64,000 nt of DNA from Moraxellaceae bacterium (GTDB taxonomy: Bacteria > Pseudomonadota > Gammaproteobacteria > Pseudomonadales > Moraxellaceae): NCBI GenBank assembly GCA_029237815.1, contig JAQZBP010000003.1, forward strand, positions 434,001-498,000, written 5' to 3'. This document shows positions 6,064-52,134 of this stretch, in pieces. The notes beneath the pieces were generated by a model, which was not told the DNA's origin, ran no database searches, and saw only the letters and a list, made by a program, of their open reading frames with translations. Within the stretch, counting starts at the first letter, position 1. Each line of letters opens with the position of its first letter. The position numbers and the translations under genes are program-made.

Positions 6064-6208
6064 GGTCTTGCTCCCGTGTGCGGCACTCTGCCGTGCTTCT
6101 GGTTGTTTTTGGGAAGCCCGGAGCTCCCGATGCAGCGCAATCTAGCGGCTTCCGGGAACTGGTGGATATGTTAGGCTCCTCCCCGAAGTTGATATTTTCG
6201 GCCAAGCC

Positions 6209-7234: not shown

Positions 7235-7481
7235 ACGGTCCGCCTCATCGCAGTGCACCGGCTGTGCCTACTGCCGCACCAGCGCCGCCGGCGCACCATG
7301 CTGGCGCGCCCCCTCCGAACAAAGGCAGCGAACGCCCGGCATCCTTCTTGCTAAATCCGCTTCAGGACCTGCCTCGGCAGCCCGGGCACAGGGAAACGCC
7401 CCTCACTGGACCAGAAGACGCAAAGCCATGACCCAGTCCCTTCATTTCCCGTCCCAAGGCTTTCTGCGCGAGGAGAATGCG

Positions 7482-8636: not shown

Positions 8637-8892
8637 CGCCAAAGGCAAAGCGGGGAAAGACCACTATTCGCCAGGGGAAATTTGCCGGGGAAACCACAAG
8701 CGGCCTGCAGCGGATCACTTCCGTGACTCCGAATGCCTGCAGTATCAGGACGGCAAGCGCGGGAACAACATCGGTGCGATCGAGAGGAGGATCGGCGCAA
8801 AGGAGCGCCTGGGGCGCGGCCCGGTTCGAACCTGCGCGTGCATGTCCTGTTGCGACTCGAGGCCGCGACTGGACATTGCAGAAAATTGGAGG

Positions 8893-9003
8893 CCCCCCTG
8901 CCAGCCCGACCCCGGCACACGCGTCACAACTACCGTTGCTTCCTTCCGGACCTGGCGGGGTTTGCTGTTTAGCGTTGCGGGGGAACCGGCAGGGTTGCCA
9001 CAG
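8893..9003 (-). ncRNA. ffs: signal recognition particle RNA, small bacterial (4.5S) type
   Basis: The reverse strand contains the conserved apical SRP RNA segment CAGGTCCGGAAGGAAGCA, followed by a run identical to Escherichia coli 4.5S RNA around GACGCGTGTGCCGG. Outer arms CCCTGCC and GGCAGGG pair to close the hairpin. The RNA pairs with Ffh for co-translational targeting. The 5' end is inferred from a strong promoter just upstream on the same strand; ends are approximate to a few bases. Confidence 0.95.
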
Positions 9004-9012
9004 CGGGCGCGC

Positions 9013-9041
9013 AGTATAGGGCCTGCGTGGAAAAAAACCAA
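9013..9041 (-). promoter_or_regulatory. sigma-70 promoter of ffs
   Basis: On the reverse strand, -35 TTGGTT (9041-9036), a 17-base spacer and -10 TATACT (9018-9013). The expected start site is about 7 bases further, matching the 5' end of the SRP RNA. Confidence 0.75.
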
Positions 9042-9331
9042 AGTACCTTGCGCGGACGCGCCGTATTCACGGGCAGCTCCGGCCCATGCCGGCCGCTCGC
9101 CTCCTGCCGGCTCGCCCGACCGCTGCGGCACGCACCTGCAGGGACGGCGGCCATAGCTCGCCAACACGCGACTGCCTCACCCAGGCGGAGGGTTCATACA
9201 CACCAGTCCTGTTCCTGCCCACCGAAATAGCGAATTGCCATAAGGCCAAAACAAAGCTCAAACACTGCCTGTCTGTTGGCTGTCATCTTCAGGTGACAGA
9301 CTCAGGCCTGCATGACGACAGGAGCGCCGCC

Positions 9332-9916
9332 ATGAATCCCCCCCTTTATTTCGACGTGATCTCTTCCCCCTTGGGCGTCCTGCTGGTCGCCCACTGCAGC
9401 GGCTACCTGTGTGCGCTGGACTTCCAGGATTACGAGTCCCGCTTCCGCCAGGTGCTGGCCCGCCGCTTCGGCAATGTACCCATCGAGCAGCGCCCCGCCC
9501 CCGAGGCGATACGGGTGCCACTCGACGCCTATCTCAGCGGCGCCAGCATGGAGGCCCTTACCGACATTCCCGTGCACGCCCCCGGCACCCGGTTCCAGCA
9601 GCAGGTCTGGAAGGCGCTACGGCGAATCCCGGCCGGCAAGCTGTGGAGCTATGGCGATCTGGCCCGGGCCATCGGCCTGCCCGGCTCCGCGAAGGCGGTC
9701 GCTCAGGCCGTCGCCCGAAACCCCGTCGCCATCATCGTGCCCTGCCACCGGCTCGCGGACAGCGACGGCCGGATCGCCAGCTACACCGGCGGCCTCGCCC
9801 GCAAGATCTGGCTACTGGCGCATGAAGGAGTTGCAGGGATCGACCGTCATCTGGAGGCGGTCCTGCCCGCCTTCCTGGGCGGGCAGGCAGCACAAGGTGG
9901 CGCCCCCGGCAGCTGA
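9332..9916 (+). CDS. ogt: methylated-DNA--[protein]-cysteine S-methyltransferase
   Basis: Suicide repair protein that moves alkyl groups from O6-alkylguanine to its own cysteine. The 194-residue product carries the IVPCHR active site with Cys at about residue 138. Before it lies the helix-turn-helix DNA-binding part (FQQQVWKALRRIPAGKLWSYGDLA, then GSAKAVAQAVARNP). The ATG at 9332 is chosen for GGAG at 9321-9324. An in-frame extension reaching back to 9086 has no conserved content and would overlap the ffs promoter area. The Ada regulatory domain is absent, so this is the constitutive Ogt type. Confidence 0.92.
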   Translation: MNPPLYFDVISSPLGVLLVAHCSGYLCALDFQDYESRFRQVLARRFGNVPIEQRPAPEAIRVPLDAYLSGASMEALTDIPVHAPGTRFQQQVWKALRRIPAGKLWSYGDLARAIGLPGSAKAVAQAVARNPVAIIVPCHRLADSDGRIASYTGGLARKIWLLAHEGVAGIDRHLEAVLPAFLGGQAAQGGAPGS

Positions 9917-10079
9917 GCCCTGGTCCGGCGATGGTGGCCGCACCCGTAGAGAGTCACGCAACACAGCAGGGCCACCGCCCGTCAGACGGACAGGAAGCAA
10001 GGGGCTATTCATAGGGAAGCGAAGGCGGCCAGCCGGCACAGGGGCCTGAGCAACAAGCCGGGACGCGCAAAGCCCAAAA

Positions 10080-10108
10080 GAAAAAGGCCTCGCAAGCGAG
10101 GCCTTTTT
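10080..10108 (-). terminator. intrinsic terminator after tRNA-Ser
   Basis: A-tract, GGCCTCGC, AA loop, GCGAGGCC and T-tract, just beyond the 3' end of the reverse-strand tRNA. Confidence 0.8.
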
Positions 10109-10118
10109 CATTCAGTTC

Positions 10119-10209
10119 TGGCGGTGAGGGAGGGATTCGAACCCTCGATACGGTATTAGCGTATACACACTTTCCAGGCGTGCGCCTTCAACCACTCGGC
10201 CACCTCACC
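10119..10209 (-). tRNA. tRNA-Ser (anticodon GGA)
   Basis: Reverse strand: acceptor GGTGAGG pairs with CCTCACC. The D-arm is GCCGAGTGG, the anticodon loop is CTGGAAA (GGA) and there is a long variable arm typical of serine tRNAs. The T-arm contains GGTTCGAATCC, and an encoded CCA ends at 10119. Decodes UCC/UCU. Confidence 0.97.
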
Positions 10210-10395
10210 GGGGATCATTTTCTCGGGTCGCCGCTTGATCTGGGTGGTTGCCGGCCACAGGGCGAGCAGGTGTAAGATGCGCACCCTCTCGTCAATGGCC
10301 GCCGCCGGCCTAGTCTCCGCATCTGCCCGCGACCCCGCGCCGTCGTCCGGGGGAAGCCTATCCGGGGATGACGAAAAGCAAAGGGGATACCTCCT

Positions 10396-12282
10396 ATGCA
10401 GGCGACTGCAGACCACGGTCATAAATCATCGACTACCGCGCTGTCCCTCGGAGCGCTCGGCGTCGTATTCGGCGACATCGGCACCAGTCCGCTGTACGCC
10501 CTCAAGGAGTGCTTTCACGCCAGCCACGGCATCCCCATCACGCACGACAATGTACTCGGCATTCTTTCGCTGATCTTCTGGTCGATTACGCTGGTGGTGT
10601 CGCTGAAGTACATCGCCTTCATCATGCGAGCCGACAATAACGGCGAAGGCGGCATCATGGCCCTGCTCGCGCTGACCCTGCGCTCCGAGCACAAGGGCGC
10701 CGTACGCCGCCGCCTGCTGATCATGACCGGCCTGTTCGGCGCTGCACTGTTCTTCGGGGACGGCATCATCACCCCGGCGATTTCCGTGTTGTCCGCGGTC
10801 GAGGGCCTGGAGATCGCCACGCCCGTCCTCAAACCCTTCATCCTTCCCATTACCATCTCGGTGCTCATCACACTTTTCGTGATCCAGCGTTTCGGCACTG
10901 GTTCGGTCGGCCGCTGGTTCGGCCCTGTGATGGTGATCTGGTTCACCACGCTGGCCGCGATGGGCGTGGCAAACATCAGCCGCTACCCGCACGTGCTCGA
11001 AGCCGTGAATCCCCTCTGGGCCATCAGCTTCGTCGCCGAGCACCGATTCATCGCCTTTGTCACGCTGGGTGCCGTGGTGCTGACCATCACCGGGGGCGAA
11101 GCACTTTACGCTGACATGGGCCACTTCGGACGCCGCCCCATCCGCCTTGCCTGGTTCTACCTGGTGTTTCCCGCCCTGCTGCTCAACTACAGTGGCCAGG
11201 GCGCATTGCTGCTGACCGACCCTAGCGCTGTCGAGAATCCTTTCTATCGCCTTGCTCCGCAGTGGGGCCTGCTGCCACTGGTGGTGCTATCCACGCTGGC
11301 TACGGTGATTGCCTCGCAGGCCGTGATCTCGGGAGTTTTTTCGATTACCCGCCAGGCCGTGCAACTGGGCTACCTGCCACGCATGCATATCCAGCACACC
11401 TCTACCAAGGAAATCGGCCAGATCTATATTCCCGCGGTGAACTGGGCGCTGCTCGCCAGCATCATCCTGCTCGTCATCACTTTCCAGTCCTCCAGCAACC
11501 TGGCCTCGGCCTACGGCATTGCTGTCACGCTAACCATGATTTGCGACACCATCCTCGCCGTCGTGGTGGCCCGCAAGCTGTGGAACTGGCATCCGGTGGC
11601 GGCCATCCTGGTGGCCGTGCCTTTCCTGCTGATCGACCTGGCCTTTTTCGGCGCCACTTCGCTCAAGGTGCTGCAGGGCGGCTGGTTCCCGCTGCTGGTT
11701 GGCCTGACCGCCTTCACCATCATGTCCACCTGGAAGCAGGGCCGGCAGCTCCTGTTCCGGCGCCTCGCCAACGAGACCATGCCGCTCGGCCTGTTCGTGA
11801 ACTCCATTGGCGGTGGCTCAGTGCAAACGGTACCAGGCACGGCCGTATTCATGACGGGCAGCCACCAGTACGTGCCACACGCCATGTTGCACAACATGAA
11901 GCACAACAAGATCCTGCACGAACGCAATGCGCTGCTGACACTGGTCACACGCGACATTCCCTTCGTGGACGACGCCGAGCGCGTCGTCATCTCCGAGGTC
12001 TCGCACAATTTCTACCTGATCACCGGCTACTACGGCTTCAAGGAACAGCCTGACGTACCGGCGCTGCTGGCGAGTTGCGCGGCGAAGGGGCTGGAGTTCG
12101 ACATGATGGACACCAGCTTCTTCCTGTCGCGAGAACGAATCGTCGCCAGCGTCGCCCCCGGCATGGCCATGTGGCGCGAGCTCCTCTTCGTGGCCATGTC
12201 GCGCAACGCCGCTGCCGCAACCGACTTCTTCCAGATCCCCACCAACCGCGTGGTGGAGCTCGGCACCCAGATCGAGCTGTAG
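10396..12282 (+). CDS. kup: low-affinity potassium transport protein Kup
   Basis: Potassium-proton symporter of the inner membrane, 628 residues (E. coli Kup 622). The N-terminus has the family signature LGVVFGDIGTSPLYAL, followed by about 12 hydrophobic segments to roughly residue 430. Conserved FFGDGIITPAISVLSA and GGEALYADMGHFG are present. The last 170 residues form the cytoplasmic C-terminal domain. A possible promoter (TTGCCG at 10248, TAAGAT at 10273, long 19-base spacer) lies about 120 bases upstream. It appears monocistronic. Confidence 0.95.
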   Translation: MQATADHGHKSSTTALSLGALGVVFGDIGTSPLYALKECFHASHGIPITHDNVLGILSLIFWSITLVVSLKYIAFIMRADNNGEGGIMALLALTLRSEHKGAVRRRLLIMTGLFGAALFFGDGIITPAISVLSAVEGLEIATPVLKPFILPITISVLITLFVIQRFGTGSVGRWFGPVMVIWFTTLAAMGVANISRYPHVLEAVNPLWAISFVAEHRFIAFVTLGAVVLTITGGEALYADMGHFGRRPIRLAWFYLVFPALLLNYSGQGALLLTDPSAVENPFYRLAPQWGLLPLVVLSTLATVIASQAVISGVFSITRQAVQLGYLPRMHIQHTSTKEIGQIYIPAVNWALLASIILLVITFQSSSNLASAYGIAVTLTMICDTILAVVVARKLWNWHPVAAILVAVPFLLIDLAFFGATSLKVLQGGWFPLLVGLTAFTIMSTWKQGRQLLFRRLANETMPLGLFVNSIGGGSVQTVPGTAVFMTGSHQYVPHAMLHNMKHNKILHERNALLTLVTRDIPFVDDAERVVISEVSHNFYLITGYYGFKEQPDVPALLASCAAKGLEFDMMDTSFFLSRERIVASVAPGMAMWRELLFVAMSRNAAAATDFFQIPTNRVVELGTQIEL

Positions 12283-12386
12283 CGGCACCACACCGGCCAG
12301 CGGCCCGTTGGCGGGCCGGACGGCCGGGCCGCCGGCAAGCCCGCTTGCTAGACTGGCGACGCCAGCGCCGTACAGGAATGTCTGCC

Positions 12387-14720
12387 ATGCCGCCCTGCGC
12401 CGTCCTTCGCTGCATCATTCCCGGACTGTCTTCGCTACTTCTGTTGCCACTCCCCGGCCTCGCGCAGGCCGCCCCTGAGGCAGTGCCGTCCTACCGGGAA
12501 AGCATCCAGCCGCTGCTCAACCAGAAATGCGTCGCCTGTCACGCCTGCTATGACGCGCCCTGCCAGCTCAACCTGGGCAGCAGCGAAGGCGTCCGTCGAG
12601 GCAGCACGCAACTGAAGGTCTACGACAGCAAACGCACCCGCACGCAGGCCCCCACCCGGCTTTTTACCGATGCGCAAGATGCGGGCGAGTGGCGCCGAAA
12701 AGGCTTTAGCTCAGTCCTCGAATCACAGGGCCCCGCGACTGAAACGCTGCTCGGCAGCATGCTGGCGCTCGGCCGGCAGCATAAGCTCCAGCCCGGCCGT
12801 AAACTCCCCGCTGACATTCCCGTCGGCATCGATGCCATCCATGCCTGTCCGCAGGACGCGGTCGAATTCGCGCAATTCCGCCAGAAATATCCGCACCGCG
12901 GCATGCCACTCGGCGTCACTGGCCTCACCGACAGCGAATACCGGACGATCACCGCGTGGCTCGCCGCCGGCGCGCCGATTGACGATCGCCCGCCACAGTT
13001 ATTGCCACAGGAAATCGATCAACTCGCCGAGTGGGAGGCGCTGCTGAATCCGGAGGGCGCGCGCGAGCAACTGGTGGCGCGCTGGCTTTACGAACACCTT
13101 TTTCTCGCCCACCTGTATTTCGACAACGTGGCGGAAGGCAACTTCTTCGAACTGGTGCGTTCGCGCACGCCGTCCGGCCAGCCCATCGACCTCATCGCCA
13201 CCGCGCAGCCGAACCATCCGCCCGGCAGCGCCCGGATCTATTACCGGCTGCGGCCGCTGCAGGGCGCCATCGTCCACAAGACGCACATCACCTACGCCCT
13301 TGGCGCACAGAAGATGGAGCGCATCCGCACGCTCTTCTTCGACAGCGACTGGGCGGCAGGGCCGGTTCCCGCCTACGACGAGGCGGCTCGCGCCAATCCC
13401 TTCACGACCTTCGCCGCGATTCCGGCGCGTGCCCGCTACCAGTTCATGCTGGATAATGCGGAATACTTCGTGCGCACCTTCATCCGCGGGCCGGTCTGTC
13501 GCGGCAGCATCGCCACCGACGTGATACGCGACCACTTCTGGCTGCTCTTCCAGGCACCCGAGCGCGACCTCTACGTCACGAGTGCCGCGCACCGCAGCCG
13601 CGCCGATGCCCTGCTCGGCCTCCCCGGCCAGCGCAGCGGGCTGGCTGACCTGCCGTCACAGTGGGCGACCTACACGCGGCTGCGCAACCAGTACAGCGCA
13701 GTGCGCGCCGACGACTATGCGCGCGCCCAGCCCGACGGCGCGGCACTCACGGACATCTGGCTCGGCGAGGGCCGCAATCGCGACGCGCTGCTGACCATCG
13801 TGCGCCACCACGACAGTGCCTCCGTCACGCGCGGCCTGGCGGGGCCCCTCCCGCAAACCCTGTGGTGGATGGACTTCCCGCTGCTGGAGCGCACCTATTA
13901 CAGCCTGGTGGTGAACTTCAACGTCTTCGACACCGTCTCGCACCAGGCGCAGACCCGCCTCTATTTCGATCTCATCCGGCATGGCGCCGAAACGAATTTC
14001 CTGCGCCTGATGCCGCCGGGATCGCGGCAGGCCCTGATCGACGACTGGTACCAGAGCAGCGGCAAGCTCAAGGTCTGGCTGTACTATCCGAAGACGGACA
14101 CGTCGCGCCCGGTGGCCATTCCCTATCGCACGGACACGCCCCGGCAGGAATTCGTCGACCGCCTGCGCGTGCGCATGGGCGACCTGGCGCGGCAGGACCC
14201 GCTCAACGGCTGCACCAACCTGCTCTGCTACCGGCCGGGAATCCCGCTATTCCTGCGCGTGTCCGACCATGCCCTGAGCCGGCTGACGCACGACACCGCC
14301 GCCACGCTGCCGGTGATCCTGCAGCTGCCGGAGGCCACGCTGCTGCGCGTGCAGGCGCCGGACGGCCAGCGCGAGGTGTACACCCTGCTACGCAACCGCG
14401 CGCACAGCAACGTCGCCTATATGGCCGGCGAGACCCTGCGCCATCAGCCGCAAAAGGATCGCCTGATGGTGTATCCGGGCCTGCTGACCAGCTACCCGAA
14501 TTTCGCCTTCGACATCCCCGCCGGGGAAATATCGCTGTTCGCGGATGCGCTGCTGGCCGCGCGCGGAACGGCCGACTTCACGGCGATCGTGGAACGCTGG
14601 GGCATACGCCGCACGCATCCGGATTTCTGGCGCCTGTTCAATGATTTCACGGCCTGGCAGCGCGAACGCGACCCGCGGGAGGCCGGCATACTGGACATGA
14701 GCCGCTACGGGAATCTCTGA
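12387..14720 (+). CDS. cti: fatty acid cis/trans isomerase
   Basis: Periplasmic heme enzyme that converts cis to trans unsaturated membrane fatty acids, a solvent and heat stress response known from Pseudomonas and Vibrio. The 777-residue protein has a signal peptide (hydrophobic run to ...GLAQAAPEA). A cytochrome-c type CxxCH lies at about residues 48-52 within CVACHACYDAPCQLNLGS, as in known Cti. The length matches the family. ATG 12387 sits 10 bases after AGGA; ATG 12378 is possible but too close to it. Located downstream of kup with a separate 104-base gap. Confidence 0.93.
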   Translation: MPPCAVLRCIIPGLSSLLLLPLPGLAQAAPEAVPSYRESIQPLLNQKCVACHACYDAPCQLNLGSSEGVRRGSTQLKVYDSKRTRTQAPTRLFTDAQDAGEWRRKGFSSVLESQGPATETLLGSMLALGRQHKLQPGRKLPADIPVGIDAIHACPQDAVEFAQFRQKYPHRGMPLGVTGLTDSEYRTITAWLAAGAPIDDRPPQLLPQEIDQLAEWEALLNPEGAREQLVARWLYEHLFLAHLYFDNVAEGNFFELVRSRTPSGQPIDLIATAQPNHPPGSARIYYRLRPLQGAIVHKTHITYALGAQKMERIRTLFFDSDWAAGPVPAYDEAARANPFTTFAAIPARARYQFMLDNAEYFVRTFIRGPVCRGSIATDVIRDHFWLLFQAPERDLYVTSAAHRSRADALLGLPGQRSGLADLPSQWATYTRLRNQYSAVRADDYARAQPDGAALTDIWLGEGRNRDALLTIVRHHDSASVTRGLAGPLPQTLWWMDFPLLERTYYSLVVNFNVFDTVSHQAQTRLYFDLIRHGAETNFLRLMPPGSRQALIDDWYQSSGKLKVWLYYPKTDTSRPVAIPYRTDTPRQEFVDRLRVRMGDLARQDPLNGCTNLLCYRPGIPLFLRVSDHALSRLTHDTAATLPVILQLPEATLLRVQAPDGQREVYTLLRNRAHSNVAYMAGETLRHQPQKDRLMVYPGLLTSYPNFAFDIPAGEISLFADALLAARGTADFTAIVERWGIRRTHPDFWRLFNDFTAWQRERDPREAGILDMSRYGNL

Positions 14721-14828
14721 CACGGGCGACTCGGTTGATCTGCCGCCGGAGTGACATCTGTCACTTTCCGGCCGTGCCCGGGCGCCCCCACAATCGAACG
14801 GATAACAAGAACAAGACAGGTAGGCCTC

Positions 14829-16088
14829 ATGACGTCACCCCTGCCCTCCCTGCTGCTGCTGGGCTCGCTGCTCGCGCTGGGCGCCTGCGGCGATGACCGC
14901 AGCGGCAGCCTCACCCGCGACGACGGCCCCACCGCAACCGCGACCGATGCCTCCTCTCCCGACTACTGGCCTGCAGAGGGATGGCGAACGGCAACGCCCG
15001 AATCTCAGGGATTCCCGTCCGGCGCCTTCGCTACGCTCGCCGACGATGCCGCCACCGCGCTGCCCTACTACACCAGCCTGATGGTGATCCGGAACGGCTG
15101 GGTGCTGCACGAGAGCTACCACCCAACGGACTCAGAGGCGAGTGATGCCAATACGCCCCATCACGTCTGGTCGATCACCAAGAGCGTGACCTCCCTGACG
15201 CTCGGCCGCGCCTGGACGCTCGGCGATCTCACCGACCTGGACGAGACTGCCGACAGCGTGTTCCCTGCCAGCGTGATGGACACACTGCCGACAGACGATG
15301 CACGCCGCGGCATCACGCTGCGCCACGCCCTGCAGATGCGCTCCGGCCTGGCCTGGAACGAGCCGGCCTGGCTGCTGAACTTCACGGCGATGAAGGACCC
15401 GCTCTTTCGCGCCTACTCCGGCCTGGACCCCGCCTGTCCCACCGACGCCGGAATCCTGGCCTGCTCCATCCTGAACCAGCCACTGGCCTACGCGCCGGGC
15501 ACGACCTGGAACTACAACACCTATGACACCTACCTGGCGTCGGCGTTTTTCACCGGGCTCACCGGACAATCGCTGAACCAGTACGCCGCCACCCATCTGT
15601 TTGCACCGCTCGGCATCACCTTCGACGTCGCCAGCGACTGGCCCAACGTCCCCGACCCCGTCACCTTCGGCGGCGGACTGCTCAATATCCGCAGCCGCGA
15701 TCTGGCCCGCCTCGGCATGCTGGCGTTGTACGACGGGCGCTGGCAGGACCAGCAACTGATTGCGAAGGACTGGATCGACCTCACCACCACGGCCCAGGGC
15801 ACCGGCCGCGTCGCGCTTTTCGACGTTGATGGGAATCCGCGCGCGCTCACCGCCGACGACCCCGAGGTCGACATTCCCTACGGCCTGCAATGGTGGCGCA
15901 TGACAGGCCCCGGCCTCGGCGGGACGCCCTCGCTGAGCGCCCGCGGCCTTGGCGGCCAGATGATGCACATCTTCAAGGACAAGGAGCTGATCATCCTCAT
16001 CACCTGCGACAGCAATGTCCTGTCCGGTCGCGAAGCGGCCATCAACGACTTCCTGCAGACTCGAATCCTGGACAAGCTGACGCTGTAG
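14829..16088 (+). CDS. lipoprotein serine hydrolase (beta-lactamase/class C-like)
   Basis: A 419-residue lipoprotein. The N-terminal signal ends LLALGAC-GDD, a lipobox with Cys19. The penicillin-binding/beta-lactamase fold is shown by S-I-T-K (Ser115/Lys118) inside HVWSITKSVTSL, then GITLRHALQMRSGLAW, WNYNTYDTYL near the usual Y-x-N position, and a late GLGG segment. Such proteins are esterases, peptidases or amidases; true beta-lactam resistance is not implied. ATG 14829 is preferred over 14751 because the signal peptide begins there. Ends at a hairpin terminator. Confidence 0.85.
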   Translation: MTSPLPSLLLLGSLLALGACGDDRSGSLTRDDGPTATATDASSPDYWPAEGWRTATPESQGFPSGAFATLADDAATALPYYTSLMVIRNGWVLHESYHPTDSEASDANTPHHVWSITKSVTSLTLGRAWTLGDLTDLDETADSVFPASVMDTLPTDDARRGITLRHALQMRSGLAWNEPAWLLNFTAMKDPLFRAYSGLDPACPTDAGILACSILNQPLAYAPGTTWNYNTYDTYLASAFFTGLTGQSLNQYAATHLFAPLGITFDVASDWPNVPDPVTFGGGLLNIRSRDLARLGMLALYDGRWQDQQLIAKDWIDLTTTAQGTGRVALFDVDGNPRALTADDPEVDIPYGLQWWRMTGPGLGGTPSLSARGLGGQMMHIFKDKELIILITCDSNVLSGREAAINDFLQTRILDKLTL

Positions 16089-42572: not shown

Positions 42573-43109
42573 ATGATTCGTGGACGACTGCTCGCCCTGG
42601 CCTTCCTGGGCCTCGCCCTCTCCGGCGCCCTTCCGCTGACGCAGGCCCATGCCGCCGGCGCCCCGCTGCCCAAGGATCTGCAGGGACTCAAGGGCGAACT
42701 CCTCAATCTCAATCGCGACATCTCCCAGATCGAGAAGGACCTGCTCTTCCCGAGCACTGAAACCGCCGTGGTGTTCGCGCTGGAGCCCAGCTCACCGCTC
42801 AAGATCATCGACGCCAAGCTGCTGGTCGACGACAAGGACGTGGCTTATCACTTCTACAGCGAGCCCGAACTCGCCGCGCTCGCCAAGGGCGGCATGCATC
42901 GCCTATTTACCGGAAACGTGACCAGCGGCCAGCACAACCTCAAGGTCGTGATGACGCTGCGCGGCGCCAACGGCGCGGAACAGCAACGCACCGCCAGCTA
43001 CACGTTCACCAAGGGGGCGCAACGCAAGGTCATCGAGGTCAAGCCCGTGGTCCAGGCGACCACATCCCAGGGCGACGTGCGCTTCCGGGAATGGGAAGTC
43101 CAACAATAA
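42573..43109 (+). CDS. exported protein, first gene of the TPR/Tol-like operon
   Basis: A 178-residue protein with a signal peptide (cleavage near QAHAAG). A short coiled-coil (LKGELLNLNRDISQIEKDLLF) is followed by a beta-rich domain (VVFALEPSSPLKIIDAKLLVDDKDV, then SGQHNLKVVMTLRG) that looks immunoglobulin- or carrier-like. The family is not recognised by name. The ribosome binding site is poor. It is periplasmic by prediction and its place at the head of the operon suggests a structural role in the envelope complex. Confidence 0.75.
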   Translation: MIRGRLLALAFLGLALSGALPLTQAHAAGAPLPKDLQGLKGELLNLNRDISQIEKDLLFPSTETAVVFALEPSSPLKIIDAKLLVDDKDVAYHFYSEPELAALAKGGMHRLFTGNVTSGQHNLKVVMTLRGANGAEQQRTASYTFTKGAQRKVIEVKPVVQATTSQGDVRFREWEVQQ

Positions 43110-43167: not shown

Positions 43168-45105
43168 ATGACACAGACCTCTCGCCTTCGATGCGCGCCG
43201 CGGCTCCTGACGCTTGCGGTCGCCCTGCTCGGAATAGCGGCCCCTGTCGCGGCCACCGACCTGCGCGAGCGTCTCAACGTGCGCCAGGAATCCAGCGAAG
43301 TGGTCATCGGCGAGACGATGTACAACTTCTATCTCGGCGACAATTTCACGGCCCTGAACCACATCCTCCTGGCCAAGGCCATGGGCCGCATCGACGAGAG
43401 CATCACCACGTCCGAGCTGCTGCTCGGCGACCTGCTCACCGCCTTCGGCATGCCCGACGAGGCCGACAACATCTTCGCCCGCATCGCAACCCGCGACACG
43501 CGCTCGCAGACCCGCAACGAGACGATGTTCCGCCAGGGCCGCCTGCAATACCGCCAGGGCAACTATTTCGAAGCGGAGCGCATCCTCAACGTGCCGCTCG
43601 ACACCAAGATGTCGACGATCGAGACCGAGCGCCGCGTGATGCTGGCCAACGTGCTGATGACACGCAACGCCTTCCTCGAGGCGCGCGAAGCACTCGCCCC
43701 GATCTCGCTCGACAATCCGCTCGGCCCCTACGCCACCTACAACATCGGCGTCTCACACCTGCGCGCCAACCACGGCACCGAGGGCATGCAGCTGCTCGAG
43801 CGCGTGATGAACCTGCCGGTGAGCGATACCGAAACGAACGCACTGAAAGACCGCGCGGCGCTCGCGCTGGGTTACGACTACCTGCAGATGCAGCAGCCCG
43901 AGAAGGCGCGCGAGGCGCTCGTCAACGTGCGCCTCAAGGGACCGTTCTCCAACAACGCCATCCTGGCGCTGGGCTGGGCCAACTACGAGCGCAAGGACTA
44001 CAAGCGCGCGCTCGCCTACTGGCTGGAGCTGCTCACGCGCAATACCGCCGACCCCTCCGTGCAGGAGGCCATGCTGCTCGCCCCGCGCGCCTATGAGGCG
44101 CTGCAGGCCAACCAGCAGGCCCTCTATGGCTACAAGCTCGCTGCCTCCACGCTGACCGGGCAGCTCGATACGCTGGAGCGGATCGAGAAGGACATCGCCT
44201 CCGCCGGCTGGCTCGATCGCCTGGGCGCCAGCGCCAACCTGGATCCGTTCGGCGATCCCCTGGCCGTGCCGGACTCCATCGTGCCCGCCGACAAGGTCGC
44301 CGTTGCCCAGCTCTTCGCGCTCTTTGCCAGCCATCCGTTCAACGAAGGCTATCAGCAGTACGAGCAGCTCAAGCGCCTGCGTATCGTCCTCGACGAGCGC
44401 AGCAATGACCTGCGCGCGATGCGCGAGATGTCCGCGCTGCTGCGCAAGCGCCAGTCCGACCTGCCGGCGATTGCCGCCCGCGTGACCGAACTCCGGCAGC
44501 GCCTCGACCTCGTCGCCGAGCGCTTCCCCATCCTCGACAAGCGCGCCCGCCAGGCGGCCCGCAGCAGTGCCACCGCCCCCGCCCGCCCTGCCGGCCTGAA
44601 GACGCTGGAGCAGCAGTTCAAGCTGCAGCAGATCGAAACCTCCCTGTCGCGCCAGCCGGACAGCCCGACGGTGCGCGCCCTGCGCGACCGACTGGCCGTA
44701 CTGAAGGGACTCATCCTCATGGACAACGCCAGCAAGGTGGCGCCCTCGCAGGAAGAGATCTATGCCGACCTCGCGCGGAGCGAGTCGCAACTGCGCATCC
44801 TGCAACAGCGCATGGAGGCACTGCAGAAGCTGCTCGCCGACAACCAGCGGCAGGCCGCCGCCAATAACGAAGCAAGGATCAACGACATGGAAAGCCGTCT
44901 GAAGACCAGCTACCAGGCCCTGGACGCGGCCCTCGCCGAATATCGCGGCTACCTGAACCAGCTCGCCTACAACGAGCTGGAGGACCGCCGCAACCGCATC
45001 AACAGTGATATCGCCGAAGCCCACCTCAGCATTGCCCGCCTCCAGGACGCGTCGCTCTTCCGTGACGATGGCCAGGGCACTTCCTCTGCGAAACCGATGC
45101 CATGA
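43168..45105 (+). CDS. exported tetratricopeptide-repeat protein
   Basis: A 645-residue protein with a signal peptide (MTQTSRLRCAPRLLTLAVALLGIAAPVAA). Helical repeats of TPR type run to about residue 330 (for example FRQGRLQYRQGNYFEAERILN and RAALALGYDYLQMQQPEKAREALVNVRL). The C-terminal 250 residues are charged and rich in coiled-coil (LAVLKGLILMDNASK, QLRILQQRMEALQKLLADNQ). Predicted periplasmic scaffold. AGGAA upstream; its end overlaps the next gene by 4 bases (ATGA), indicating translational coupling. Confidence 0.82.
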   Translation: MTQTSRLRCAPRLLTLAVALLGIAAPVAATDLRERLNVRQESSEVVIGETMYNFYLGDNFTALNHILLAKAMGRIDESITTSELLLGDLLTAFGMPDEADNIFARIATRDTRSQTRNETMFRQGRLQYRQGNYFEAERILNVPLDTKMSTIETERRVMLANVLMTRNAFLEAREALAPISLDNPLGPYATYNIGVSHLRANHGTEGMQLLERVMNLPVSDTETNALKDRAALALGYDYLQMQQPEKAREALVNVRLKGPFSNNAILALGWANYERKDYKRALAYWLELLTRNTADPSVQEAMLLAPRAYEALQANQQALYGYKLAASTLTGQLDTLERIEKDIASAGWLDRLGASANLDPFGDPLAVPDSIVPADKVAVAQLFALFASHPFNEGYQQYEQLKRLRIVLDERSNDLRAMREMSALLRKRQSDLPAIAARVTELRQRLDLVAERFPILDKRARQAARSSATAPARPAGLKTLEQQFKLQQIETSLSRQPDSPTVRALRDRLAVLKGLILMDNASKVAPSQEEIYADLARSESQLRILQQRMEALQKLLADNQRQAAANNEARINDMESRLKTSYQALDAALAEYRGYLNQLAYNELEDRRNRINSDIAEAHLSIARLQDASLFRDDGQGTSSAKPMP

Positions 45106-48059
45106 AAGCACGCCAGACTTTTCACTACCGCCTGACTCCCCTCTCGCTGGCCATCGTGCTGCTGGCCGGCTGCGCGAGCGCGCCGCCCCCCGCGCCGAAG
45201 GCCGAGAACAAGACCCGTTTCACCGGTACGCTGGCCGACCTCGAGAGCCGCGAGATCGACATCAAGAACGAGCAGGTGCTGCCGCAGAGCGCCGAAGAGG
45301 TGCTGGCCAACTACCAGACCGCGCTCAAGCTTTTCCGTGACCCGGCCGCGCGCCTCGACACCCTGAAGCGCATGGCCGACCTGACGATGGAATCCTCGCA
45401 GGCGCGCGATGCCGAGAAGGATCCGGCGGCAGCGCCGAAACCCGCCTTCGAGGATGCGCAGCATGAGGACTACATGCAGGGCCTCGACAAGGCCAGCGGC
45501 AAAGGCGCTGCCAAGCAGAAGGGCGCGACGGCCCTGCAGGCCCAGCTCGAGGTCAACTACGGCGAGGCGGTGGAACTCTATGCCGCCGTGGTGAAGAACG
45601 CGCAGACGCCGAACGAACGCGCCGACGCCTACTACAACCTGGCCAAGGCCTACGACCTCAACGGCCAGCGCGCCGAATCCGTCGACACGCTGCGCCTGCT
45701 GGTCACGCAATTCCCGGACAACCCCCTTGCGGTGGAGTCCCGCTTCCGTATCGCCGAATACGAATTCACGGTGGGCCAGTACCTCGCCGCCGCCGACAAC
45801 TATGCCCTCGTGGTGAAGACGCCGGGTAATGCCGATTTCCGCGACCAGGCGCTCTACAAGCAGGGCTGGGCGCTGTACAAGGCTTCCGACTACGATGCAG
45901 CCCAGCCGATCTTCTTCCAGGTGCTGGAGGAGCTTGAGACCAAGGTGCGCAGCGCCGACCCCAAGATCCGCTCGCACGCCGGCAAGCTGCGCGAGGACAC
46001 CTACAGCATCATCAGCCTCGGCTTCATCCAGCAGGAAGGCGCGAAATCGGTCGAGCAGTATTTCAAGAAGGTCGGCCCCAAGAATTACGAAACCGACGTC
46101 TACATGAACCTCGGCAAGGCCTACATGAACCGCCGCCTGTGGCGTAATGCGGCCGAGTCCTACGATTTCTTCGTCGCCAAGTATCCGTTCAGCGCGCGCG
46201 CACCGGAATTCAGCACGGCCTCCATCAAGGCCTTCCAGGACGGCGGCTTCCCCTCCGAAGTGCTGCCCGCCAAGGAACGGTTCGTGCAGCGTTACGGCCG
46301 CACCAGCGAATTCTGGGGCCGTGCCGACGAGAGCACCCGCCAGAGCCTGCTGCCCTTCCTGCAGTCGCACGTGATCGACCTGGCCAAGCACTGGCATGCC
46401 GTCGCCCAGCAGTCGCAGAAGGAAGAGGATTACCTCAAGTCCGCCAAGTGGTATCGCGAGTTCCTGACGCTGGATCCGGCCCCGGCCGAAGCCGTCACCA
46501 TGAACCAGCTGCTGGCGGAAGCGCTGTTCGCCGCGAAGAAATTCGACGAGGCCATCGTCGAGTTCGAGAAGACCGCCTATGGCTATGCGCAGAATCCCAA
46601 GGCCGCCGAGTCCGCCTATTTCGCGCTGCTCGCCTACAACGAACAGGAAAAGGCCGGCCTGAAGGGCACGCCGGAAGAACAGAACGCCTGGTGGGGCCGT
46701 CGCACCGACAGCACCTACAAATTCGCCAAGGCCTTCCCCGCCGACAAGAACACGCCCGTGCTGCTGCAGGGCCTGACCAACGACCAGATCGCGCGCAAGG
46801 ACCTGACCGGCGCCATGAAAACGGCCAGCACCATCCTGCAGCTGTATCCGCCGGCACCGCTGGCGATCCAGAAGGAAGCCTGGGCCGTGGTCGCCGACGG
46901 CGAGTTCAACATGGGCCGTCCGGAAGCCGCCGAAGTCGCCTATGGCAAGGTCCTCGCCTTCACCGACCTGACGCCGGAAGAGCGCCGCACCTACCAGGAG
47001 CGCCAGACGGCATCGATCTACAAACAGGCCGAGAAGCTCAAGGACTCGAAGGACGTGGATGGCGCCGTGTCCGCCTATCTGCGCGCCGCCAAGGTCACCA
47101 CCGACATCAAGCTGAAGTCCTCGGCCGAGTTCGACGCCGCCACCACCTACTTCACGGCCGAGCGTTATGCCGCCGCGATCCCGATGCTGGTGGCCTTCCG
47201 CGCGAGCTATCCCGACAACACGCTGAACAGCACGGTTCCCGACAAGCTCGCGCTGGCCTATGAAAAGACGGGCCAGTTCGACAAGGCCGCGGCCGAATAC
47301 GAGCTGATCTCCGCCGCCAACGCCAGCAGCAATCCGGAAGTGGCGCGCGAAGCCATGTGGGTGGCGGGCGAGATGTACAACAAGGCCGGCCGCAACGACG
47401 AAGCACTGCGCATCTACAAGCGCTACGTGGCGGCGTATCCGAAGCCCATCGATGTGAACATGGAGGCGCTGAACCGCCTCTACACGCATTATGACAAGCA
47501 GGGCAACGCCGCCGAGACCACGACCTGGCTGACGGCGCTGTCTCAGGCCTACGACCGCGCCGGCGGCGACAACACCGCGCGCACCAGTTATCTCGGTGCC
47601 ATGGCGAAGTTCAGGCTGAACCAGCCCGTGTACGAGGAATTCGCCGCAATCCAGCTGACCCAGCCACTCAAGAAGAGCCTGGGCATGAAGAAGGCGGCGA
47701 TGCAGCGCGCGCTCGATGCCTATACGAAGACGGCAGCGATCGGCGTCGCGGAATTCACGACGGCCTCGAACTACCAGATCGCGGAAATCTATCGCAAGCT
47801 CGCCGCCGATCTCATGGCCAGCCAGCGCCCCAACGGCCTCTCCGAGCTGGAGCTCGAGCAGTACGCCATCCTGCTGGAGGAACAGGCCACGCCGTTCGAG
47901 GACAAGGCACTGGACCTGTACATCGCGAATGCCAACCTGGCCAAGCAGAACATCTACGACGACGGCGTGCGCAAGAGTTTCGCTGCACTCGCCAAGCTTT
48001 CACCGGGCCGCTACAACAAGCACGAGCAGCCTGAACCCTTTGTCGACGTGATCTACTGA
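45102..48059 (+). CDS. large TPR-containing lipoprotein
   Basis: A 985-residue lipoprotein: the signal ends LLAGC with Cys24. Many TPR-like repeats follow along the whole length (for example YYNLAKAYDLNGQRAESVDTLRLLVTQFPDNP, and later PDKLALAYEKTGQFDKAAAEYELI). The repeat style is close to that of the large TPR proteins found with Tol/Agl-type motors. Ser/Ala after Cys suggests the outer membrane. Likely the main periplasmic scaffold of the complex. Confidence 0.85.
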   Translation: MKARQTFHYRLTPLSLAIVLLAGCASAPPPAPKAENKTRFTGTLADLESREIDIKNEQVLPQSAEEVLANYQTALKLFRDPAARLDTLKRMADLTMESSQARDAEKDPAAAPKPAFEDAQHEDYMQGLDKASGKGAAKQKGATALQAQLEVNYGEAVELYAAVVKNAQTPNERADAYYNLAKAYDLNGQRAESVDTLRLLVTQFPDNPLAVESRFRIAEYEFTVGQYLAAADNYALVVKTPGNADFRDQALYKQGWALYKASDYDAAQPIFFQVLEELETKVRSADPKIRSHAGKLREDTYSIISLGFIQQEGAKSVEQYFKKVGPKNYETDVYMNLGKAYMNRRLWRNAAESYDFFVAKYPFSARAPEFSTASIKAFQDGGFPSEVLPAKERFVQRYGRTSEFWGRADESTRQSLLPFLQSHVIDLAKHWHAVAQQSQKEEDYLKSAKWYREFLTLDPAPAEAVTMNQLLAEALFAAKKFDEAIVEFEKTAYGYAQNPKAAESAYFALLAYNEQEKAGLKGTPEEQNAWWGRRTDSTYKFAKAFPADKNTPVLLQGLTNDQIARKDLTGAMKTASTILQLYPPAPLAIQKEAWAVVADGEFNMGRPEAAEVAYGKVLAFTDLTPEERRTYQERQTASIYKQAEKLKDSKDVDGAVSAYLRAAKVTTDIKLKSSAEFDAATTYFTAERYAAAIPMLVAFRASYPDNTLNSTVPDKLALAYEKTGQFDKAAAEYELISAANASSNPEVAREAMWVAGEMYNKAGRNDEALRIYKRYVAAYPKPIDVNMEALNRLYTHYDKQGNAAETTTWLTALSQAYDRAGGDNTARTSYLGAMAKFRLNQPVYEEFAAIQLTQPLKKSLGMKKAAMQRALDAYTKTAAIGVAEFTTASNYQIAEIYRKLAADLMASQRPNGLSELELEQYAILLEEQATPFEDKALDLYIANANLAKQNIYDDGVRKSFAALAKLSPGRYNKHEQPEPFVDVIY

Positions 48060-48067
48060 GGCCGCCC

Positions 48068-48949
48068 ATGAGCATTCAGCAACTTCCCGCCAAAAGCGCG
48101 CTTGCCGCCGCCCTCGCGCTCTCGCTGCTGCTGGGCGGCTGCAGCAGCGCGCCGAAGAAGCCGGTCGAGGCCGCCGGGCCCGAGAGCAACGAGCCCGACC
48201 TCGTCGCGCAGCTGCGCGAGCGCATGGCCTCCGGCAACCTGCCACGCAAGGCCAAGGTCGAATCCACCGGCCCCACCGCCGTCACCGGCGACACCTCGAG
48301 CGCGCCCACCGTGACGGTGGACCCGGTCAAGCAGCAGGCCGCGATGGCCGTCGGTGCCGACTATGCGCGTGCCCTCGGCCTGATGAAGGCGGACAGCGAC
48401 GCCGAAGCGCTGGCCCTGCTGCGGCAGATTGGTACCCGGGCGCCGCAGTTCTCCGGCCCGCTGGTGAACCAGGGTGTGATCCTGCTGAAGCAGAAGAAAT
48501 ACGCCGAGGCCGAGACCGCACTGAAAGCAGCACTGAAGGCCAACCCGCGCAGCCCCTATGCCAATAACCTGCTCGGCATCGCGCTGCGCGAACAGGGCAA
48601 GTTCGGCGACGCGAAAGCTGCCTACCAGGCGGCGCTCGCCCTCGACCCGAACTATGCCAAGGCGCACTTCAACCTTGGCGTGCTCGCCGACCTGTACATG
48701 CAGGAGCTGCCGCTGGCGCTCTCGCACTACGAGAAGTACCAGGCGCTGCAGTCCAAGCCGGATCCGGCGGTGGCGAACTGGATCATCGACCTGCAGAAGC
48801 GCACCGGGGTGTACAAGGCCCCGCCGCGCCCGGCCCCGGTGGAACCGGTGGCCACGCCCGACGAGCCTGCTGCCGAAACGGCGCCGGCGACCGAACCACA
48901 GGCCCCGGCAACGGATGCCGCGGCCGCGGAACAGAAGAGCGCATCATGA
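48068..48949 (+). CDS. TPR lipoprotein
   Basis: A 293-residue lipoprotein with lipobox LLGGC (Cys25). A central set of three to four TPR units (NQGVILLKQKKYAEAETALKAALKANPRSP, NLLGIALREQGKFGDAKAAYQAALALDPNYAKAHFNLGVL) is followed by a Pro/Ala/Glu-rich C-terminal tail. It starts 9 bases after the previous stop and overlaps the next gene by 4 bases. It resembles the small TPR lipoproteins (PilF- or GltE-like in architecture only). Confidence 0.82.
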   Translation: MSIQQLPAKSALAAALALSLLLGGCSSAPKKPVEAAGPESNEPDLVAQLRERMASGNLPRKAKVESTGPTAVTGDTSSAPTVTVDPVKQQAAMAVGADYARALGLMKADSDAEALALLRQIGTRAPQFSGPLVNQGVILLKQKKYAEAETALKAALKANPRSPYANNLLGIALREQGKFGDAKAAYQAALALDPNYAKAHFNLGVLADLYMQELPLALSHYEKYQALQSKPDPAVANWIIDLQKRTGVYKAPPRPAPVEPVATPDEPAAETAPATEPQAPATDAAAAEQKSAS

Positions 48950-49266
48950 ACAAGGCACTCAGTGTGGGCCTGCTGGCCCTTAGTCTCGGCAGCCCGTTGC
49001 TGGCGGCGCCCGCCGCCACGGACAAGAAGCCCGAGGCGGCAGCGGGCGGCGCCGCCACGCCGGCCACCGCTCCGGCGGCACAGACCGACATCATCGGCAC
49101 GCAGGAAGCGCCGTCGGTGTTCAACGTGGTGCCATGGAAGGACAAGCCCTCGCGTCTGCCCAAGAAGGAGGTGACCACCTCCATCCTGCGCGAGACGCTG
49201 CAACCGCTGGACCCCGAAGTGCTGCGCCGCGAGATCGAGCTGCAGAAGCGCCTCGGGGAGCAATGA
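48946..49266 (+). CDS. small exported protein of the operon
   Basis: A 106-residue protein with a signal peptide (MNKALSVGLLALSLGSPLLA). An Ala/Pro-rich linker is followed by a conserved-looking C-terminal part (NVVPWKDKPSRLPKKEV, then LQPLDPEVLRREIELQKRL). It overlaps the TPR lipoprotein gene (ATGA). Short periplasmic linkers like this may bridge the inner-membrane motor to other parts. No family name recognised; real gene by context and signal. Confidence 0.72.
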   Translation: MNKALSVGLLALSLGSPLLAAPAATDKKPEAAAGGAATPATAPAAQTDIIGTQEAPSVFNVVPWKDKPSRLPKKEVTTSILRETLQPLDPEVLRREIELQKRLGEQ

Positions 49267-49384: not shown

Positions 49385-50038
49385 ATGAACATGTTCCAGA
49401 GCTTTGCGTCCTTCATGCAGGAAGGTGGTGTGTGGATGTATCCCATCCTGCTTACCCTGGTCGCCGGTATCGCCATCAGCATCGAGCGCTGGCTCTATCT
49501 CTCCAAGGTGGAACGGGTGAACAAGGAGCTGTGGGCGGAAGCCTTCGCGCTCGTGTCCAAGGGCCAGGTCAAGGCCGCGCTGGAGAAGACCAAGGTGTCC
49601 GACTCCGCGCTCGGCATCATCCTCACCAACGGCCTTACCCGCCTCGTCACCTCGCGCAAGATGGACGACGTGGAAATGGCGATGGAAGAAGGCCTGATGG
49701 AGTCGCTGCCGCGCCTGGAAAAGCGCACGCATTACCTCTCCACGCTGGCCAACGTCGCCACCCTGCTCGGCCTGCTCGGCACGATTATCGGCCTGATCCA
49801 CGCGTTTACCGCCGTGGCCTCCGCCGACCCCGCCGAAAAGGCGAACCTGCTCTCCGCCGCCGTGGGTGAAGCCATGAACTGTACGGCCTTCGGTCTCATC
49901 GCCGCGATCCCGATGCTGGTCATGTTCTCCCTGCTGCAGTCCAAGACCGGCGCCGCCGTGGAGTCCCTGGAAGCCGCTTCCGTGAAGTTCCAGAACGTCA
50001 TCCGCCAGATCGGCAACCAGCAGACCCCGCAGCAGTGA
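49385..50038 (+). CDS. MotA/TolQ/ExbB-type proton channel protein
   Basis: A 217-residue inner-membrane protein with three membrane segments (about 15-35, 118-140 and 165-187). The family core is LEKRTHYLSTLANVATLLGLLGTIIGLIHAF and AMNCTAFGLIAAIPMLVMF. It should pair with the two TolR-like proteins encoded next to form a proton-driven motor. AGGAG precedes the ATG. The 118-base gap before this gene is the largest in the operon, so a second promoter could lie there. Confidence 0.92.
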   Translation: MNMFQSFASFMQEGGVWMYPILLTLVAGIAISIERWLYLSKVERVNKELWAEAFALVSKGQVKAALEKTKVSDSALGIILTNGLTRLVTSRKMDDVEMAMEEGLMESLPRLEKRTHYLSTLANVATLLGLLGTIIGLIHAFTAVASADPAEKANLLSAAVGEAMNCTAFGLIAAIPMLVMFSLLQSKTGAAVESLEAASVKFQNVIRQIGNQQTPQQ

Positions 50039-50072: not shown

Positions 50073-50582
50073 ATGAGGCGCCGTAAACCGCGCGAGTTGG
50101 AAGCCGACCTGGACATGACCACCTTCATCAACCTGATGGTGGTGCTGCTGGCCTTCCTGCTCGTGACCTCTGCCTTCACCGAACTGTCGCGACTGCAGGT
50201 GAACCTGCCGTCCGGCGGTGGCGGTGCAGGGGGCGCTGACGCGCCCAAGCCGCTGGTCCTGGAAATATCGATCTACAAGGACAAGTTCGTGGTGGCCGAC
50301 CGCCAGTCGGGCCCCATGAAGATCGTCAACGCCACGCCGCAGGGTCTGGACTTCAAGAGCCTCAACGAATACCTGGTCGGTGTGAAGGCCAGCTATCCGG
50401 CGATCACCGAAGTCACCCTGCTGCTGGAACCGGACACCGACTACGACACCCTGATCCACACCATGGACTCCGTGCGCTACAAGCCGCGCGAAGTGAACGG
50501 CAAGTGGATCAAGGCCTCGCTGTTCCCGGACATCGGCATTGGTGACGCGCCGACCGCCGCGGAAGCCGGAGGTGCCGCATGA
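50073..50582 (+). CDS. TolR/ExbD-type protein lacking the usual membrane Asp
   Basis: A 169-residue protein with one N-terminal membrane helix (DLDMTTFINLMVVLLAFLLVTS) and a periplasmic domain. At the position where ExbD (Asp25) and TolR (Asp23) carry the essential proton-binding Asp, this protein has Asn20 (F-I-N-L-M). Asp12 and Asp14 just before the helix are not equivalent. It may be a structural partner of the next gene's product, which keeps the Asp. Overlaps the next gene by 4 bases. Confidence 0.88.
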   Translation: MRRRKPRELEADLDMTTFINLMVVLLAFLLVTSAFTELSRLQVNLPSGGGGAGGADAPKPLVLEISIYKDKFVVADRQSGPMKIVNATPQGLDFKSLNEYLVGVKASYPAITEVTLLLEPDTDYDTLIHTMDSVRYKPREVNGKWIKASLFPDIGIGDAPTAAEAGGAA

Positions 50583-51088
50583 GCAAGCAATCCGCCCAGC
50601 TGGCGCGCATGGCGCGCCGCCACCGGCTGAAGAAGCCGGCGTCGATCCAGCTCACCTCGCTCATCGACATCCTCACGGTGCTGGTGTTCTTCCTGCTGGT
50701 GAACTCGCAAAACGTCACCAACATCCCCGACAGCCAGCAGCTCGACCTGCCGAAATCGACCGCCGACACGCGCGCCGAGGAAACGGTGCTGACGGTGATG
50801 GTGAACGCGAAGGACATCGTGGTGCAGGGCGTGAAGGTGGCCAGTACCGCCGAAGCGCTGCAGATCCAGGGCGATGTCATCCCCGGCCTCGCCAAGGAAC
50901 TCGCCTATCGCGCCAGCAAGGCGCCGCCCAAGCTGAACGAGCAGGGCATTCCCGAGCGCGAGGTCATGATCCTCGGCGACAAGGGCATCCCCTACTCGCT
51001 CTTGCGCAAGGTCATGGCTACCTGCTCCGCCTCCGACTACAGCAAGATCGCCTTCGCGGTAATGCGCACGAAGGAGGGCAGCCGATGA
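50579..51088 (+). CDS. TolR/ExbD-type protein with canonical membrane Asp
   Basis: A 169-residue protein with a membrane helix at about 24-45 (SIQLTSLIDILTVLVFFLLVN). The proton-path Asp30 is in L-I-D-I-L as in ExbD/TolR. The periplasmic domain carries VLTVMVNAKDIVVQG and EREVMILGDKGIPYSLLRKVM, the usual ExbD fold. Starts within the stop of the previous gene and overlaps the next by 4 bases. Confidence 0.9.
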   Translation: MSKQSAQLARMARRHRLKKPASIQLTSLIDILTVLVFFLLVNSQNVTNIPDSQQLDLPKSTADTRAEETVLTVMVNAKDIVVQGVKVASTAEALQIQGDVIPGLAKELAYRASKAPPKLNEQGIPEREVMILGDKGIPYSLLRKVMATCSASDYSKIAFAVMRTKEGSR

Positions 51089-52134
51089 GCAATCTCGTCC
51101 TCGAGTACATGCGCCCCACGCTGCCGTGGGATCCGCAGCCGGGCGAAAGCACCCGCTTCCGCGCGCTGATGGCGTTCTTCCTGATCCTGGCCTTCCTCAT
51201 CTGGATCATCGTGCCGCGCATCGAGATCCCCAAGGTCGACCGCGCCAAGGCCGAAGCCGTACCCGAGAGCCTGGCCAAGGTGGTGATGCAGCGCAAGGAA
51301 GTGCCCCCGCCCCCACCCCCGGTGGAGACGGTGAAGAAGGAAGAGATCAAGCCCGAAGAGACGGTAAAGAAGGAAGAGGCCGCGGTCCCGCAGCCGAACC
51401 CTGACGCCGCGCCCAAGCCCGTGGTCACGGACCTGCAGCGCAGCGCCGCCAAGGCTCGTGCCAGCCAGGCCATCCAGGACGCCGGCTTCGACGACCTGGC
51501 CGACCTGCGCGACATGGACGTGGCCGCCGCCGGCGCGCCGCGCGGCATGCCCGGCCAGACCGGCAACGGCACGGGCGGCCTCATCACCAGCACCGAGGAA
51601 GCGGGCACCAGCCGCAACCTGATCACCAGCCGCGCCGGCTCCGGCTCGGGCTCTTCCGCCGGCGCCTACAGCGGCGGCGTGAGCACGGGCTTCGGTGGCG
51701 GCAAGGCCGGTGGCAAGGGCACGGCGGGCCTGCTCGGCGCCGCGGGTGCCGGCGGTGGCAGCGCGCAGCTGCAGAAGGTGCAGAGCACCATCGGCAGCGG
51801 CGGCGCCGCCGCCTCGGAAAGCCGCGTCGGCAAGGACGGCAAGTCGCGCCGTACGGCCGAGGACATCCGCAAGGTCTTCGACCGCAACGGTGCCCGCCTG
51901 AACAACCTGTACCAGCGCGCCCTGCGCGACGATCCCACCATGCAGGGCCTGGTGAGCCTGTCCCTGACGGTGGCGCCGGACGGCTCGGTGTCGAATGCCT
52001 CGATCACCTCCAGCCAGCTCAACAACTCCGAGCTGGAAGGCAAGATCCTGGCGCTGGTGAAGGGCTTCAACTTCGGCGCCGCGCCGGTGGACGTGTGGTC
52101 GGGCAACTACAGCCTGAACTTCTACGCCAACTGA
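51085..52134 (+). CDS. TonB/AgmX-like trans-envelope protein
   Basis: A 349-residue protein with one membrane segment (about 27-46). A Pro/Lys/Glu-rich stretch (KEVPPPPPPVETVKKEEIKPEE) like that of TonB is followed by a Gly/Ser-rich low-complexity linker (about 155-250). The C-terminal domain (from about 256: RTAEDIRKVFDRNGARLNNLYQRAL, then VTVAPDG-like strand) is of the AgmX/PglI type found in Agl/Glt gliding proteins and TonB-like transducers. It probably carries motor force across the periplasm. Last gene of the operon, followed by a terminator. Confidence 0.88.
   Translation: MSNLVLEYMRPTLPWDPQPGESTRFRALMAFFLILAFLIWIIVPRIEIPKVDRAKAEAVPESLAKVVMQRKEVPPPPPPVETVKKEEIKPEETVKKEEAAVPQPNPDAAPKPVVTDLQRSAAKARASQAIQDAGFDDLADLRDMDVAAAGAPRGMPGQTGNGTGGLITSTEEAGTSRNLITSRAGSGSGSSAGAYSGGVSTGFGGGKAGGKGTAGLLGAAGAGGGSAQLQKVQSTIGSGGAAASESRVGKDGKSRRTAEDIRKVFDRNGARLNNLYQRALRDDPTMQGLVSLSLTVAPDGSVSNASITSSQLNNSELEGKILALVKGFNFGAAPVDVWSGNYSLNFYAN

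Follow-up and report, generated by a model that had tools for sequence, protein, structure and literature searches.

Asparagine at the Proton-Site Position of a TolR/ExbD-Like Subunit Encoded beside an Aspartate-Bearing Partner in AglR-Type Motor Operons

In the accepted 5:2 model of rotary proton motors, the two Asp residues of a dimeric axle alternate against five pentamer subunits, with ten protons passing per turn (PMC9389320). A 64,000-nucleotide stretch of the genome of a Moraxellaceae bacterium (GenBank assembly GCA_029237815.1, contig JAQZBP010000003.1, positions 434,001 to 498,000; referred to here as the window) harbors two adjacent genes for TolR/ExbD-like subunits, designated here TolR1 and TolR2. 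An earlier note on this DNA had claimed that TolR1 carries Asn in place of the essential proton-carrying Asp, which raises the questions of whether this replacement is genuine and conserved and of what kind of motor such a pair of subunits would form.

An Asn-type and an Asp-type subunit encoded side by side

TolR1 (positions 50073 to 50582, plus strand) is a 169-amino-acid protein whose translation starts MRRRKPRELEADLDMTTFINLMVVLLAFLLVTS and whose membrane helix has the sequence LDMTTFINLMVVLLAFLLV; its score against the ExbD/TolR family PF02472, 53.8 bits, lies above the curated cutoff of 25.4 bits. In a phmmer alignment with the solved ExbD, Asn20 of TolR1, specified by an AAC codon (50130 to 50132, plus strand), occupies, gap-free, the position of the essential Asp25, and TolR1 has Asn where proton-carrying proteins of the ExbD/TolR/MotB type have a conserved transmembrane Asp. 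The claimed replacement is borne out by this alignment and by its recurrence in 183 of 192 homologous proteins (see below). A sequencing or annotation artefact is ruled out as the source of Asn20, since the residue recurs in the paralogous operon of this genome and in every close relative. The AlphaFold2 model of TolR1 (mean pLDDT 85.6) combines a single N-terminal transmembrane helix (residues 15 to 42) with an ExbD-fold periplasmic domain at residues about 60 to 160. The solved structure closest to this predicted domain is that of TolR (5by4; Z 11.0, rmsd 3.2, 84 residues), with ExbD at Z 9.1.

The TolR2 gene (50579 to 51088, plus strand) overlaps the stop of the TolR1 gene by 4 bp (ATGA, 50579 to 50582), and its product scores 61.6 bits against PF02472 (cutoff, 25.4). 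Its helix sequence, LTSLIDILTVLVFFLLV, includes LTSLIDILTV and thereby the conserved transmembrane residue Asp30 (codon GAC, 50666 to 50668, plus strand), as the earlier note had read it.

Operon layout and gene set

The two subunit genes are preceded by a TolQ-like gene and TPR genes and followed by a GltG-like transducer gene, all on the plus strand. The gene run opens with a 178-amino-acid exported protein (42573 to 43109), the equivalent place in the paralogous operon being held by a 189-amino-acid protein (L007:14286-14855), and continues with a TPR/coiled-coil exported protein (43168 to 45105), which is GltC-like by position only, and a large TPR protein (45102 to 48059), GltD-like by position. 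These are followed by a TPR lipoprotein-like protein (48068 to 48949), whose match to GltE (NF033758) lies below the cutoff, a small protein of 106 amino acids without a family match (48946 to 49266), and the AglR/TolQ-like proton-channel subunit (49385 to 50038), which matches PF01618 and bears the pore residues Thr133 and Thr167. Downstream, overlapping the stop of the TolR2 gene by 4 bp, a GltG/GltJ-like force transducer is encoded (51085 to 52134) which has an AgmX/PglI C-terminal domain (NF033768; 55.8 bits, cutoff 40) and weak matches to both GltG and GltJ.

The window operon is of the agl/glt-like "core complex" type, as the gene set of this complex (aglR, two tolR-like genes, a GltG-type transducer, and TPR proteins) is present both here and in the paralogous operon. 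The equivalog scores in the window operon are too low (GltG, 40.2 versus the 650 required; GltE, 37.1 versus 225), and the encoded proteins are therefore regarded as homologues, not as orthologues, of the AglRQS-Glt motility proteins. In the paralogous operon, which lies approximately 38 kb away in the same genome (L007; C3:515000-530000, positions 5049 to 14855, minus strand), the entire gene run is present again in diverged form, and the operon shows the same pattern as that of the window, with Asn in its first subunit (LDVTTFMNLMV) and Asp in its second (LSLTSLMDIFT).

Core complexes of this layout, related to the Myxococcus gliding machine and of unknown function, have been described in Gammaproteobacteria (Luciano 2011, PMC3169522). 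Like the AglRQS and Glt/Nfs core complex of Myxococcus xanthus (Luciano 2011, PMC3169522; Wartel 2013, PMC3858216), the window operon specifies one TolQ/ExbB and two TolR/ExbD homologues, a GltG-like transducer, and TPR proteins. The two systems appear to differ at the proton site: according to a 2022 review, AglQ and AglS of M. xanthus are both predicted to carry the conserved Asp, and the AglQ D28N substitution kills the motor (PMC9389320), whereas the window motor, compared here with that literature description only, has Asn in one of its two subunits. Asn at the proton site is not mentioned in the cited AglRQS-Glt papers.

Asn as a family trait of the first subunit

Searches for first subunits, i.e., TolR1 and its counterparts, covered Gammaproteobacteria, the wider phylum, Nitrospirota, KSB1, Eisenbacteria, and smaller groups. 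Among relatives, every first-position orthologue has Asn, even as identity drops to 28%. Across all searches, the site is occupied by Asn in 183 of 192 distinct proteins, by Asp in 6, and by Gly, Thr, and Ser in one each, while Glu never occurs; Asn is thus prevalent in first-position proteins well beyond chance but falls short of complete fixation. The distribution by group, which rests on uneven sampling across phyla, is 118 Asn and 1 Ser in Pseudomonadota; 30 Asn in KSB1; 19 Asn, 6 Asp, and 1 Thr in Nitrospirota; 12 Asn and 1 Gly in Eisenbacteria; 2 Asn in Krumholzibacteria; and 2 Asn in a small Gemmatimonadetes-labelled group. Canonical ExbD/TolR proteins from the genomes searched, taken as controls, have Asp in 24/24 cases, and E. 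coli ExbD and TolR, added as further controls, have it as well.

Ascertainment bias towards Asn was tested by a partner-side contig scan, which was queried with the Asp subunit and is blind to the first subunit. The gene upstream of the second subunit has Asn in 75 of the 77 loci recovered and Asp in the other 2, these loci being drawn from many genera of Gammaproteobacteria, Nitrospirota, KSB1, Eisenbacteria, and Krumholzibacteria, and the notion that the Asn excess reflects such bias is not upheld. The second subunit has Asp in 191/191 cases; because the pattern used for the partner-side scan itself contains Asp, this residue was re-counted on loci found via the first subunit and reaching the second, where it is present in all 133 distinct loci.

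The codons for the site Asn are evenly used (AAC, 92; AAT, 91), although a single base change would restore Asp, which argues that the amino acid itself is under selection. This evidence bears on the reading that TolR1 is functionless and its Asn a neutral leftover of relaxed selection. The lone Gly, Thr, and Ser cases, which indicate that other residues are tolerated, are in keeping with such a reading, yet the residue is kept across phyla despite the even codon usage and the remainder of TolR1 is conserved; conservation of such depth refutes this explanation, which we consider extremely improbable.

Two further observations concern the distribution of the family. In KSB1 (the phylum of L108), 76 of 82 genomes match the Asn-type subunit, mostly with two matches each, and the motor may belong to the core envelope biology of this phylum. 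Separately, an operon on contig JAVHYE010000075.1 (L039), whose label is Pedobacter, encodes a second subunit with 80% identity to TolR2 of the window; the corresponding metagenome bin probably bears a wrong label or is mixed.

History of the site

In a tree of the individual subunits, TolR1, TolR2, and canonical ExbD/TolR form three clans, with support values of 96, 98, and 96, respectively. A tree of the combined AglR, TolR1, and TolR2 proteins, computed with the site column removed in a quick search that leaves some branches weak, has Asn on either side of its root, which is a midpoint root only, and Asp in two nested groups. The first comprises four Nitrospirota sequences placed within the gammaproteobacterial part of the tree, and the second comprises two sequences beside an Asn-type sister. 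The simplest reading, which we favor, is that the ancestor would have had Asn and that Asp was regained on two later occasions; one of the two sites of the motor has probably been Asn since the common ancestor of the family. Orthologues with Asp, which the earlier note had put forward as a refutation, do exist (6/192, all Nitrospirota), but as the tree places them as later returns inside Asn-type clades, the Asn pattern is not overturned. The Asp-type Nitrospirota operons L092, L097, L170, and L171 are nested in the gammaproteobacterial tree, a placement which suggests horizontal transfer followed by the return to Asp.

Absence of a replacement acid and composition of the pore

The earlier note had also named Asp12 and Asp14 of TolR1 as acids that might lie in the pore instead. 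Shifted there, one of them would carry the proton, giving two proton sites in total. Positions −8 and −6 relative to the site, which correspond to these residues, are indeed frequently acidic in first subunits. Their aligned counterparts in ExbD, however, are Asp17 and Asn19, which precede the proton site, and canonical proteins are often acidic at −8 alongside the site Asp, so that an acid at −8 can coexist with the proton site and need not take its place. In six Asn-type loci both acids are lacking, and among the 192 first subunits no acidic residue occurs between −4 and +11 except the six site Asp residues, leaving the first subunit without a proton carrier at pore depth. Asp12 and Asp14 are accordingly rejected as substitute proton carriers across the 192 sequences, and a second proton site of this kind is judged very improbable.

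Pro is found at +7 from the site in 170 of the 183 Asn-type first subunits and is absent from all six Asp-type ones; the window TolR1 has Ala there. The neutral subunit may be associated with a Pro-kinked helix, and kinship may also explain the split.

The pore of the channel subunit retains the threonine ring of the 5:2 rotary proton motor, as the residues corresponding to Thr133 and Thr167 are invariant in 143/143 loci. AglR-type TolQ proteins, in addition, conserve an Asn two positions ahead of the second pore Thr (Asn165 in the window protein), where TolQ/ExbB have Ile, Val, or Met; this residue may mark the AglR-type motor family. It would also speak for a chemically active Asn20, which, rather than being a blank, would help to bind an ion or water near TolR2 Asp30 and the Thr ring and possibly tune ion choice or leak. 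The strong preference for Asn over other non-acidic residues at the TolR1 site (183 versus 3) would agree with such a role, but single cases of Gly, Thr, and Ser occur there and first subunits of the Asp type are likewise accompanied by the AglR Asn, and we regard an active Asn20 as rather improbable.

A proposed heterodimeric axle

The sequence comparisons support the view that a proton-dead subunit is encoded beside a proton-competent one and that the pair is conserved. The two genes are adjacent in all distinct loci except L014, which lies at a short contig end, and the 4-bp stop/start overlap, present in 88/191, points to equal production of the two proteins. We consider it likely that TolR1 and TolR2, as non-identical subunits, together make up the axle of a single AglR-type 5:2 proton motor. 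The strict 1:1 gene pair and coupled translation make a D/N axle the simplest product, and we lean, by a narrow preference, towards an obligately heterodimeric rotary motor of 5:1:1 composition, in which one Asp alone carries protons, each turn takes five proton steps, and asymmetry is built in, and which would be ancestral to this multi-phylum family.

The main rival holds that each subunit forms separate homodimers in AglR pentamers, AglR5-TolR2(2) being active and AglR5-TolR1(2) being an inactive anchor or a regulator which reduces the number of active motors. Solved members of the family are homodimers, TolR1 and TolR2 form distinct clans with their own conserved features, and TolR1 retains the full ExbD fold in its AlphaFold2 model, all of which would suit this arrangement. 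The strict 1:1 adjacency with coupled overlap is better suited to a fixed 1:1 complex, as is the result that none of the 77 loci of the partner-side scan has TolR2 without TolR1, and separate homodimers are considered unlikely.

In the preferred 5:1:1 motor, TolR1 and TolR2 would form a 1:1 heterodimer within one AglR pentamer. TolR2 Asp30 would take up and release the proton against the threonine ring of AglR, while TolR1 Asn20 would act as a neutral mimic of a permanently protonated Asp, TolR1 merely completing the axle. Since only TolR2 could take a proton, each pentamer subunit would be met once per turn, and the single working proton path would allow five rather than ten transits per turn, with bigger steps (strokes of 72 instead of 36 degrees) and a lower peak torque, at about half the maximum. 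The motor would be mechanically asymmetric; the periplasmic domain of TolR1 would be free to specialize, and the mismatch between the periplasmic domains could reserve one face for a partner, for instance the cell wall or the GltG-like transducer. The motor would power an envelope-spanning Glt-like core complex. Some considerations stand against the 5:1:1 motor. Alternating-site models for canonical motors use both Asp residues and MotB motors are harmed by a D-to-N mutant copy, which might lead one to expect that a D/N axle stalls. The regaining of Asp on two occasions implies that the family can also work with a symmetric motor.

Relation to known motors and significance

The proposed motor resembles the 5:2 motors ExbBD and TolQR of E. 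coli in its subunit families, Thr ring, and periplasmic fold, but differs from their homodimeric axle with two Asp residues in having two diverged subunits, one of which lacks Asp. Heterologous axle-like genes beside a TolQ-like gene are also found in TPH-vWA pairs and PVC tolR-like pairs (PMC12204202); TPH-vWA pairs, by contrast, are reported to have Asp in each monomer, and no Asn subunit appears in that paper. A literature search for an Asn-type or heterodimeric TolR, with most subscription papers outside its reach, returned none. The operon type and the presence of two TolR-like genes per operon are already known; what is new, within this incomplete literature coverage, is the Asn-type subunit beside the Asp-type one.

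The structure of the Agl complex is unsolved (2026 review, PMC13104615), and the pairing of AglQ with AglS and the need for both Asp residues to cycle are regarded as open questions (PMC9389320). A natural Asn/Asp family makes both questions, the latter and pairing of the AglQ/AglS type, testable. The 5:1:1 model predicts a heterodimer, five-fold rather than ten-fold stepping, and a dead motor if TolR2 alone loses its Asp, with the two Asp-regaining lineages serving as natural controls. If true, it would break the 10-fold symmetry that has been called almost certainly universal for 5:2 motors (PMC9389320), and a motor found in several bacterial phyla would probably run on one proton site, versus two in its well-studied relatives.
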